DNA from: Bacteroidota bacterium
GTDB taxonomy: Bacteria; Bacteroidota; Bacteroidia; Palsa-965
DNA: 60,626 nucleotides
Reading direction: 5' to 3'
NCBI GenBank assembly: GCA_013298545.1
Contig: JAAFIA010000020.1
Location: 1-60,626 of the forward strand
This document shows, piece by piece, positions 45,603 to 57,165 of this stretch (position 1 is its first letter; each line of letters begins with the position of its first letter). The translations under genes and the position numbers were made by a program. The notes under the pieces were generated by a model, which was given only the letters and a program-made list of their open reading frames with translations, made no database searches and was not told the DNA's origin.

Positions 45603-45610
45603 TAGTTTTG
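45603..45610 (+). promoter_or_regulatory. -7 box TAGTTTTG for the lone ABC ATPase
   Basis: Exact TAnnTTTG 3 nt before GTG 45614, again a leaderless arrangement. A TTG start at 45608 would lie within this box. Confidence 0.45.
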
Positions 45611-45613
45611 CTC

Positions 45614-46237
45614 GTGCTACACATCACTCTCGACAGTATTGGCAAACGTTACCTCCGCGAATGGATTGTGCGCGGTGTTTTTCATGAATTTTCCCCAGGT
45701 TCAAAAACCGTTTTGTTGGGAGCAAATGGTTCAGGCAAATCAACCCTTTTGCAATTGGTTGCCGGAAACTTGATGGCTACCGAAGGCGCGCTCACCTATA
45801 CAATTCAAGACAAAAAAATACCGCAAGAAGAAATTTTCAAGTACCTCAGTATCGCCGCACCTTACCTCGAACTGATGGAGGAATTTACATTGTTTGAATC
45901 TGTTGCTTTTCAAGAAAAATTCAAACCCTGGCGAAATGGATTGACTGCGAAAAACGTCATTCAGATTTCGGGCCTGGAACATGCGCAACACAAACAAATC
46001 CGAAATTTTTCTTCTGGCATGAAACAACGCGTTCGCCTGAGTCTCGCTATTCTTGCCGATACGCCGTTGCTCCTACTCGATGAGCCTTGTGCCAACCTCG
46101 ATCATAACGCAATGGATTGGTATGGAAAATTAATTGGCGATCACGATAGCAACCGTACCATTGTGGTGTGCTCAAACAAACAACAGGAAGAATATTTTTT
46201 CTGCACCGAAGAAATTAACGTCGAAAATTTTAAGTAA
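45614..46237 (+). CDS. ABC transporter ATP-binding protein (stand-alone)
   Basis: 207 residues. Walker A LLGANGSGKSTLLQL near 33, a Q-loop region with YLSIAAPYLEL near 77, signature NFSSGMKQRVRLSLAI near 131, Walker B LLLLDEPCANLD near 153, and SNKQQE in place of a clear H-loop His near 184. The compact length resembles CcmA- or EcsA-like ATPases. No ABC permease lies in the window. I chose GTG 45614 because the only longer alternative, TTG 45608, overlaps the -7 box. The stop codon TAA lies inside the first bases of the 165-bp repeat. Confidence 0.82.
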   Translation: MLHITLDSIGKRYLREWIVRGVFHEFSPGSKTVLLGANGSGKSTLLQLVAGNLMATEGALTYTIQDKKIPQEEIFKYLSIAAPYLELMEEFTLFESVAFQEKFKPWRNGLTAKNVIQISGLEHAQHKQIRNFSSGMKQRVRLSLAILADTPLLLLDEPCANLDHNAMDWYGKLIGDHDSNRTIVVCSNKQQEEYFFCTEEINVENFK

Positions 46238-46397
46238 CTGTTTAAAATTTGTTTTTGAGAATTGTTATGATGGATTTTTGTGCCAGACGAGGCGCGTTTT
46301 GAAGGCCATAGCGGAGCTGCTACGGTCAAAAAACGCAACGAAGTATGGTGCAAAAAGACACATAACAAAATCAAAGGATAAAATTTAAACAGTTACT
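46233..46397. repeat. 165-bp hairpin element, copy 1
   Basis: About 90% identical by eye to the copy at 57001-57165 and of the same length. Ends agtaactgtttaaa and tttaaacagttact form a perfect 14-bp inverted repeat. Further inside, gttatg/cataac, tttttgtgcc/ggtgcaaaaa, gcgttttga/tcaaaaaacgc and ggccatagc/gctacggtc can pair, giving one long imperfect hairpin. It starts on the stop codon of the ABC ATPase. The small readings across it are not conserved proteins. No transposase nearby; probably a non-autonomous or regulatory element. Confidence 0.9.
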
Positions 46398-46448: not shown

Positions 46449-48554
46449 GTGCCGAACAGCCTTCTCGACACTCCGATCGAACACTTAAAAGGAGTCGGGC
46501 CTGAACGAGCGAAACTGCTCAAATCAGAACTCGAAATCATCACCTACGGTGATCTCCTACGCTGGTATCCATACCGGTATGTCGATCGTACCCGTTTTTA
46601 TACCACGCGCGAAATCTCTCCCGATTTGCCTTATGTGCAATTGCGTGGACAAATTCTGGATGTAAAAATTGTTGGTCAGAAGCGTGGACAACGCATGACG
46701 GCGCGTTTTACAGATGGCGTTGGAACACTCGAGCTGGTTTGGTTTCAAGGATGGAAATGGTTGCAAGGAAAATACCTTCCCGGAAAAGAATACATCATTT
46801 TTGGAAAACCTACTGTTTTCAATGGGTCTATGAATATGGCGCACCCAGAAGTAGAAGAAGTAGTGGAAGGAAAAATACAACAAGCCAATGCCTTGCAACC
46901 CATGTATTCGACAACCGAACGCATGAAAACGCGCGGGATGGATTCCAAAGCCTTGATGCGCATGTTGAAAACACTTGTTCCGCTGATTGCAGGACAAGTA
47001 AACGAAACGCTTCCCGAATCCATTACGTCGAAACACAAAATGCTTTCGCGCGAAGAATCATTAAAACAAATTCATTTTCCTTCAACGCCCGAAGTCCTGC
47101 GCCGCGCAGAAACACGCATTAAATTTGAAGAGTTTTTATACATCCAGTTGCGGCTGCTTCGTGTGCGCGCACAACGCCGTTTAAATTATCAAGGATTCGA
47201 TTTTGCTACGGTTGGCGAACGCTTCAATTCGTTTTATAAAAATTATTTACCCTTTGCCCTTACCGATGCGCAAAAGCGTGTCATCCGTGAAATCCGCACC
47301 GATATTGGTTCTGGCAAACAAATGAATCGTTTGCTGCAAGGCGATGTGGGCAGCGGAAAAACAGTTGTGGCCTTGATGTGTATGCTCATTGCGGCTGACA
47401 ATGGTTTCCAATCGTGCCTCATGGCGCCAACCGAAATTCTTGCGGTTCAACATTTCCATACGTTGCGCGATTTGTTGAAAGACATGCCCGTACACATTGG
47501 CTTACTCACCGGAAATACGAAGCAACGTGAACGCAACGTATTGCATGCCGAATTGCGTTCGGGCATGATGCAAATTTTAGTTGGCACGCATGCCTTGATT
47601 GAAGATAAAGTACAATTTGCGAATCTTGGCCTTGTGGTAATTGATGAACAACATCGGTTTGGCGTAGAGCAGCGTTCGCGCTTGTGGCGTAAAAGTTCGC
47701 GCCCACCACACATTCTTGTAATGACCGCAACGCCCATTCCGCGCACCTTGGCCATGACCTTGTTTGGCGATCTAGATTCTTCGGTCATCAACGAATTACC
47801 GCCAGGTCGCAAGCCCATCAAAACGGTTCATTTCTTTGATTCGCAGCGCGAGCGTGTCTTTGGTTTTATGCGCGAAGAGATTGCTAAAGGCCGACAGATT
47901 TACCTCGTCTATCCACTCATTCAGGAATCTGAAAAAATGGATTACAAAGATTTGATGGATGGTTACGAAAGCATTGCGCGTGCTTTTCCTCCACCGCAAT
48001 TTCAAATCAGTATTGTGCATGGACAAATGAAACCTGCGGATAAAGATTTTGAAATGCAACGCTTTGTCAAACACGAAACACAAATCATGGTAGCCACAAC
48101 GGTTATTGAAGTTGGTGTCAACGTGCCGAATGCGTCTGTGATGATTATAGAAAGTGCCGAACGGTTTGGTTTATCGCAATTGCATCAGTTGCGTGGGCGT
48201 GTTGGGCGTGGTGCCGAACAATCGTTTTGTATTTTGATGACCGGAAATAAACTGAGCAAAGAATCGAAATTGCGCATGGAAACTATGGTGCGTACCAACG
48301 ATGGTTTTGAAATTGCTGAAGTTGATTTAAAACTACGTGGTCCAGGCGATCTTGAAGGAACCAAACAAAGCGGCTTACTTGGCTTACGCTTAGCCGATTT
48401 ATCGAAAGATGGAAAAATTTTAGAGCTTGCGCGTGTCGCTTCTGCCGAAATCCTCGACCGCGATCCGCGCTTAGATTTGCCCGAGCATCACGCGCTTCGC
48501 GATGAGTTGAATCGCGAGCATCTGGGCAATGTCAATTGGAGTCGGATTTCTTAA
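46449..48554 (+). CDS. recG: ATP-dependent DNA helicase RecG
   Basis: Reverses stalled replication forks and processes Holliday junctions. 701 residues. An N-terminal OB/wedge domain (about 1-160; PIEHLKGVGPERAKLLKSEL at the start), then helicase motifs: LTDAQKRVIREI (Q motif, near 272), QGDVGSGKTVVALM (motif I, near 295), DEQHRFGVEQRSRL (motif II, near 398), VMTATPIPRTLAMT (motif III, near 420), and QLHQLRGRVGRGAEQSFC (motif VI, near 577). Starts with GTG 46449. Its stop codon shares the bases TTAA with the stop of the convergent DUF2723 gene. Confidence 0.97.
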   Translation: MPNSLLDTPIEHLKGVGPERAKLLKSELEIITYGDLLRWYPYRYVDRTRFYTTREISPDLPYVQLRGQILDVKIVGQKRGQRMTARFTDGVGTLELVWFQGWKWLQGKYLPGKEYIIFGKPTVFNGSMNMAHPEVEEVVEGKIQQANALQPMYSTTERMKTRGMDSKALMRMLKTLVPLIAGQVNETLPESITSKHKMLSREESLKQIHFPSTPEVLRRAETRIKFEEFLYIQLRLLRVRAQRRLNYQGFDFATVGERFNSFYKNYLPFALTDAQKRVIREIRTDIGSGKQMNRLLQGDVGSGKTVVALMCMLIAADNGFQSCLMAPTEILAVQHFHTLRDLLKDMPVHIGLLTGNTKQRERNVLHAELRSGMMQILVGTHALIEDKVQFANLGLVVIDEQHRFGVEQRSRLWRKSSRPPHILVMTATPIPRTLAMTLFGDLDSSVINELPPGRKPIKTVHFFDSQRERVFGFMREEIAKGRQIYLVYPLIQESEKMDYKDLMDGYESIARAFPPPQFQISIVHGQMKPADKDFEMQRFVKHETQIMVATTVIEVGVNVPNASVMIIESAERFGLSQLHQLRGRVGRGAEQSFCILMTGNKLSKESKLRMETMVRTNDGFEIAEVDLKLRGPGDLEGTKQSGLLGLRLADLSKDGKILELARVASAEILDRDPRLDLPEHHALRDELNREHLGNVNWSRIS

Positions 48555-56452: not shown

Positions 56453-57001
56453 ATGACAACACTAGAAAAATTAAGATTTGACGTGCCTACGCGCGATGAA
56501 GTATCAGCACCAAACCAAGTAATTTTTGATTCAATGCAAAATACGTTTGGAATGATTCCAAATCTTTATGCAACTTTTGCATGGAATGATACAGCCTTAG
56601 CCGATTATCTTGCGTTGCAAAATCGCAAGAATACGCTATCTGCAAAAGAACGAGAGATTATTAACTTAGTTGTTAGTCAAGTAAACGATTGCAAGTATTG
56701 TATCCCAGCGCATACAGCAATTAGTAAAATGCTTGGCTTTACTGATCAACAGATTCTAGAAATTCGTAGATCTCAAATTTCTTTCGATCTCAAATTTGAT
56801 GCTTTAGCAAAATTTGTACGAGAAACAGCCATCAATCGTGGTCGGCCTTCTGAAAATGCTGCTGATGCTTTGTTTGAAGCAGGCTATACCAAAGCCAATA
56901 TTGTTGATATGATGATGATTATTGGCGATAAAATCATTAGCAATTACTTACACAATTTTACACAAATCAAAGTCGATTGGCCGGAAGTTCCAAAAATCTA
57001 A
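56453..57001 (+). CDS. AhpD-like / carboxymuconolactone decarboxylase family protein
   Basis: 182 residues, cytosolic. The AhpD-type active-site motif CKYCIPAHTA carries Cys80, Cys83 and His87; ALQNRKNTLSAKEREIINLV precedes it and MMMIIGDKIISNYLHNF near 155 follows. Such proteins reduce peroxide-related substrates or act as thiol-dependent peroxidase partners; the uncharacterised peroxidase-related subgroup fits best. Stop codon TAA at 56999-57001, of which the last A begins the 165-bp repeat copy 2. Lies between the Crp/Fnr regulator and an SDR. Confidence 0.85.
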   Translation: MTTLEKLRFDVPTRDEVSAPNQVIFDSMQNTFGMIPNLYATFAWNDTALADYLALQNRKNTLSAKEREIINLVVSQVNDCKYCIPAHTAISKMLGFTDQQILEIRRSQISFDLKFDALAKFVRETAINRGRPSENAADALFEAGYTKANIVDMMMIIGDKIISNYLHNFTQIKVDWPEVPKI

Positions 57002-57165
57002 GAGCTTGTTTAAAATTTGTTTTTGAGAATTGTTATGATGGCTTTTTGTGCCAGACGAGGCGCGTTTTGAAGGCCATAGCAGCGCGCCTACGGTCAAAAA
57101 ACGCAACGAAGTATGGTGCAAAAAGGCGCATAACAAACTCAAAGGATAAAATTTAAACAGGCTCT
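57001..57165. repeat. 165-bp hairpin element, copy 2
   Basis: Same length and orientation as the copy at 46233-46397. The ends read agagcttgtttaaa and tttaaacaggctct: positions 3-6 differ from copy 1 (agct against taac) but the right end differs to match, so the arms still pair apart from one G-U position. Starts on the last base of the AhpD-like stop codon and ends 15 bp before the SDR ATG. Confidence 0.9.

Follow-up and report, generated by a model that had tools for sequence, protein, structure and literature searches.

A dispersed hairpin element of Bacteroidia with IS5-type ends and a strand-biased core

A hairpin element of 163 bp occurs twice in the window (the whole stretch of Bacteroidota DNA analysed here, 60,626 nucleotides). 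It is best explained as an IS5-type MITE whose two layers are under separate selection, a reading to which we give a probability of roughly 0.6. The outer layer would consist of terminal inverted repeats of about 13–20 bp which, by comparison, match the ends of IS5-family (DUF4096 + DDE) insertion sequences. A transposase supplied in trans would move the element into TWA sites, duplicating 3 bp, and the two tips would change together because both must suit one transposase. The inner layer is a core hairpin with covarying stems and a kept loop, in which a bias of G.U over A.C points to one strand being selected. Most likely, the element would be transcribed, and its hairpin RNA would serve the element itself or the host's tolerance of it, perhaps as the ligand of a conserved protein or as a substrate for processing.

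A bacterial MITE is usually viewed as a lineage-specific derivative of a single insertion sequence, whereas here one element type is found in 24 families of the same class (counted from covariance-model matches). Its complementary ends vary between genomes in parallel with those of insertion sequences, and its interior fold is strand-biased. DNA-level selection on the tips thus appears separable from single-strand selection on the core within one element. More tentatively, and at somewhat less than even odds, the elements may form a class-wide family of jumping structured RNAs, in which a core of about 120 nt refits its outer stem to the resident IS5-type transposase and its RNA form is preserved by selection.

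Copies, boundaries and dispersal

The two window copies have the same length and an estimated identity of about 91%, in agreement with the initial annotation, which had placed them correctly and put their identity at about 90%. At single-base resolution, each measures 163 bp, not 165 bp as first given, and is bounded on both sides by identical TAA trinucleotides (Table 1). The end change that had been described as paired in both arms is confirmed by reading both copies, with one tip pair of copy 2 being G.U. The predicted folding energy of copy 1 is -70.3 kcal/mol, whereas shuffled sequences average -31.5 (z = -11.8).

Table 1. Positions of the two element copies, their parts and neighbouring genes in the window
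Feature	Position	Strand	Remarks
Element copy 1	46234..46396	+	163 bp, canonical orientation, tip GTAACTG
Left target-site duplication of copy 1, TAA	46231..46233	.	Direct reading; 3-bp repeats also at other copies
Right target-site duplication of copy 1, TAA	46397..46399	.	Direct reading
Left terminal inverted repeat of copy 1, GTAACTGTTTAAA	46234..46246	+	End comparison
Right terminal inverted repeat of copy 1, TTTAAACAGTTAC on + strand	46384..46396	-	End comparison
Conserved internal loop of copy 1, 5' side, AGACGAGGCG	46285..46294	+	Alignments
Conserved internal loop of copy 1, 3' side, AACGAAGTAT	46337..46346	+	Alignments
Element copy 2	57002..57164	+	163 bp, tips GAGCTTG (left) / CAGGCTC (right)
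Left TAA of copy 2	56999..57001	.	Also stop codon of upstream CMD-family gene (56453-57001)
Right target-site duplication of copy 2, TAA	57165..57167	.	Direct reading
ABC-transporter ATP-binding gene	45608..46237	+	Stop codon (46235-46237) inside copy 1 tip
recG	46449..48554	+	Next gene downstream of copy 1

The element had been described as two-copy because the window showed only part of the genome. In the whole genome (4.53 Mb, 154 contigs), at least 40 copies were scored at 87% identity or more, a lower bound given 147 candidates at first look. Ends of the form TWAGNNNCTGTTTAAA occur 134 times in this genome, and a reversed control pattern does not occur at all. The copies lie in both orientations among unrelated genes, and among the 45 that can be read at both ends, 40 are flanked by the same three bases on each side (TAA/TAA or TTA/TTA). 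The element is therefore short, multicopy and free of a transposase gene, with terminal inverted repeats and target-site duplications, as is characteristic of MITEs. The duplications and the dispersal support the mobile alternative that had been offered at the outset beside a folded RNA.

No bias was detected in the orientation of the copies relative to neighbouring genes. This argues against a simple cis-acting mRNA element, and the core thus seems independent of the direction in which the adjacent gene is read. Because such a bias would be expected of a cis-acting RNA, the result also counts against an RNA layer. In genomes of the same genus, wherever the region behind the orthologous ABC gene was readable, the element was not found there (gene order differs, and no base-exact empty site was obtained), and four of six same-genus genomes had no element match at all. 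Copies of 57 bp without the core, with the same ends and 3-bp repeats, occur in the window's own genome; as these copies were mobile too, transposition does not seem to need the core. A dispensable core and unbiased orientation would together favour a role for the element or for host tolerance over a fixed regulatory job.

Several variant forms are present in the same genome. Core-less palindromes of 57–65 bp with the same tips and TWA duplications are found at L108 (G000:C86:20044-20101) and L116 (G000:C100:103252-103316), the latter comprising two abutting elements with one TTA in common. Lone TWAGAGCCTGTTTAAA ends that pass into unrelated sequence (L100, L102 and L113, at G000:C57:1855, C72:11613 and C91:38833) are one-ended remnants. 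Four loci of G000 (L031, L035, L057, L095) are modular length variants of 176 and 189 bp, in which one arm or both contain a small hairpin of the TTCCGAAGCCTCGGAA type. An insertion sequence starting GCATGCGCGTTAAGTT lies directly after a small CCGAARYTTCG-like hairpin, in or beside three element copies (L048, G000:C21; L098, G000:C46; L099, G000:C48), and is possibly a site-preferring element with such a hairpin as its target.

Tips and partner insertion sequences

The element ends GNNNCTGTTTAAA match the ends of IS5-family insertion sequences in the same class. The partner elements encode transposases with Pfam domains PF13340 and PF01609 (DUF4096 + DDE_Tnp_1), and the position of this DDE transposase between matching ends places them in the IS5 family; we presume that they belong to its IS1031-like group. 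They have the same end sequences as the present element and, in several genomes, TWA flanks too, but the present element has no transposase. Ends reading TWA followed by GARACTGTTTAAA adjoin the transposase in G004 and G016, TWA followed by GAAACTGTTTTGAA is found at an IS5-family transposase in G041, and GAAGTTGTTTAAAGTC is an IS5-family end in G016. Where elements carry other ends (GAAGCCATCTC, GAACTCATCTTGAC), the IS5 elements of the same genome or genus carry them too. For example, G317 carries elements ending GAACTCATCTTGAC and a DUF4096 gene flanked by the same end. In one genus, elements of G019 and G217 end in GAAGCCATCTCAAAA, and an eleven-copy IS5 element of G131 ending GARGCCATCTCAAAA matches the elements of that genus.

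Ends in common with an autonomous element, a further property of MITEs, were thus seen in G004, G016, G131, G317 and others but not in G213, where the element ends match neither of the two IS5 copies mapped. Several genomes that carry the element show no DDE_Tnp_1 gene. The initial annotation had reported no transposase; this is correct for the element and its neighbour genes in the window, but contig C90 of the same genome holds a remnant IS5-type transposase with the near-identical tip ATAACTGTTTAAAA. The remnant is the only IS5-type transposase of this genome, and the current mobiliser is unseen, which counts against the preferred explanation. The element interior was not found in the insertion sequences examined. 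Overall, the pattern fits tips that follow a resident transposase, although it is not universal, as G213 and the carriers in which no DDE_Tnp_1 gene was seen indicate.

Tips also vary between copies. Those in the window's genome are mainly GAGC, GTAA, GAAG and GAAT, each followed by CTGTTTAAA, and left and right tips agree in nearly every copy. One hybrid (L016) combines a GTAA end with a GAGC end and still lies between identical 3-bp flanks. Tip arms match at 12.7 of 14 positions within an element and at 8.3 of 14 between genomes. The three copies in G037 have different tips (GGGTATG/GGGCATG, GGGCTTG and GGGTTTG), each with a near or full match on the other side, and elements found in other families with the covariance model have different ends that are again complementary within each element. 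The initial annotation had taken the paired ends as a sign of selection for a folded RNA or of a mobile palindrome. Because the tips correspond to IS5 ends and lack a strand preference, the paired change belongs to the mobile side, and is best read, from the sequence comparisons, as co-evolution with a transposase and not as RNA selection.

Other palindromes occur inside the same IS5-type ends in G057 and G016. These elements (L127-L134 in G057, L137-L143 in G016) are about 160–350 bp long and have unrelated interiors.

Folded core and strand preference

A covariance-model search, which had been suggested as a check on the two copies, detected homologues across the class in 51 of 395 genomes, which fall into 27 of 197 genera. 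Matches are mostly full length, mostly 157–164 bp, and length differences between genomes are not multiples of three, a pattern that does not favour a conserved peptide. Carriers include one Bacteroidetes MAG and one Sphingobacteriaceae MAG. There was no match in plasmid collections, phage collections or viral contigs, which gives no support to carriage by known plasmids or phages. Rfam gave no match in the window at gathering score, and at a lax threshold only far sub-threshold matches at the element; the core is thus a concrete structured RNA candidate absent from that database. In two copies from G144 (L206, L280), the element stem runs on into flanking DNA that differs between the copies yet is itself palindromic, as if the element had inserted in the loop of a pre-existing hairpin, such as a terminator.

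The core, of about 110–130 nt, consists of covarying stems around an internal loop (GACGAGGC / AACGAAG) whose sequence is kept in alignments across the class. RNAalifold, applied to 27 copies from eight genomes, predicted 55 pairs, 40 of them with compensatory double changes. In a non-circular test, the window copy was folded alone and its structure applied to a MAFFT alignment of this copy and 45 elements drawn from 33 genomes, all outside the window's family. The structure paired 83.3% of cells in these distant elements, with double changes at 63 of 64 pairs and a covariation score of 0.584. When partners were slid by 1–3 columns, 41–50% of cells paired and the score was 0.11–0.18; none of 500 shuffles reached the observed values. 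Covariation, as expected of a structured RNA, is therefore present in an independent set with a structure taken from the window copy alone.

G.U and A.C pairs were counted at pairs chosen by Watson–Crick covariation alone, and not from a structure that allows G.U on one strand. In the interior, G.U outnumbers A.C by about 4:1 (74.8 against 18.7 genome-weighted cells), a GT share of 0.80 (bootstrap 0.72–0.88), and about 52 against 17 cells remain without the two G.U-richest pairs. The outer pairs 2–10 show no such bias (4.4 against 7.0; share 0.39, 0.14–0.65). The interior excess was seen in 30 genomes against 2, and the canonical strand has the more stable fold in 37 of 38, figures for which sign tests overstate significance since the genomes are not independent, owing to descent or transfer in common. 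Strand-specific pairing is thus found in the interior and not at the tips, across lineages that are not independent. The idea of a folded RNA is consequently not supported by the end change with which it was introduced, but survives for the interior, touched on only in passing in the initial annotation, where strand-specific covariation extends across the class.

If a palindrome were maintained as DNA, G.T and A.C should be tolerated equally, and the interior excess therefore suggests that one strand is selected. It seems that the folded form of one strand, either RNA or single-stranded DNA, is under selection in the interior. We read the element as two layers, with tips probably selected as double-stranded DNA and the core as one folded strand. 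RNA would be the simplest candidate for that strand, with single-stranded DNA as the alternative. No consistent Bacteroidota-type promoter motif was detected inside 77 elements: a -7-like motif occurs on the canonical strand of 16 and on the other strand of 7 (6.4 in shuffles), and both boxes in 2 of 77.

Alternative explanations and known systems

The element could be a plain MITE, with arms complementary only through upkeep of a DNA palindrome (by arm-to-arm conversion, template switching or transposase preference) and no selection on RNA or a single strand. Dispersal, 3-bp duplications, IS5-like ends and unbiased gene orientation all agree with this account, as do the whole-tip block changes, with few intermediates and the hybrid copy. 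The initial annotation had named target duplications together with random ends as the pattern of a simple mobile element; the duplications are present, but the ends are not random. What makes the account unlikely, though still a serious contender, is that it predicts equal numbers of G.U and A.C mismatches, as at the tips but not in the interior, and leaves the class-wide conserved loop bases unexplained. The element could instead be a host-useful structured RNA, regulatory or a 3'-end element, that was spread by IS5 transposases and is kept for host benefit. The class-wide conservation of fold and loop and the many insertions near gene ends would suit such an RNA. It is nevertheless improbable given copies at unrelated loci in either orientation, the missing element behind the orthologous ABC gene, and the same-genus genomes without a match.

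The strand-specific fold could also belong to an IS200/IS605-like or REP-RAYT-like mobile hairpin of single-stranded DNA, whose substrate is the hairpin of one strand, and the stems that extend into flanking palindromes in G144 are compatible with this. Target-site duplications and DDE-type terminal inverted repeats are not features of that class. Both are present here, the repeats being equal to DDE-transposon ends, and a derivative of this kind is very improbable.

No description of this family was found in the open-access literature searched, which does not prove that none exists. MITEs with IS5-type ends are known, namely BrickBuilt in Porphyromonas gingivalis and ATR in Neisseria meningitidis, and the present element resembles them in being non-autonomous, multicopy and mostly intergenic, with IS5-family-like terminal inverted repeats (PMC4596501). 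BrickBuilt differs in having 23-nt tandem repeats, 4-bp duplications and a range of few species only, whereas the present family is a covarying hairpin of about 160 bp found across a class, with 3-bp TWA duplications. For RNA-level effects, the Correia elements (CREE/NEMIS) of Neisseria are MITEs for which RNase III is able to bind or cleave the transcribed RNA (PMC2649163, PMC10969869). They serve as a working model by analogy; they were described from Neisseria, and no sequence relation to the present element was noticed. The BOX and RUP repeats of Streptococcus pneumoniae are likewise small, dispersed and predicted to form strong secondary structure, and some BOX copies are expressed (PMC3049150). 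These repeats belong to S. pneumoniae and close relatives, and BOX is modular and variable in length, whereas the present element has a nearly fixed length.
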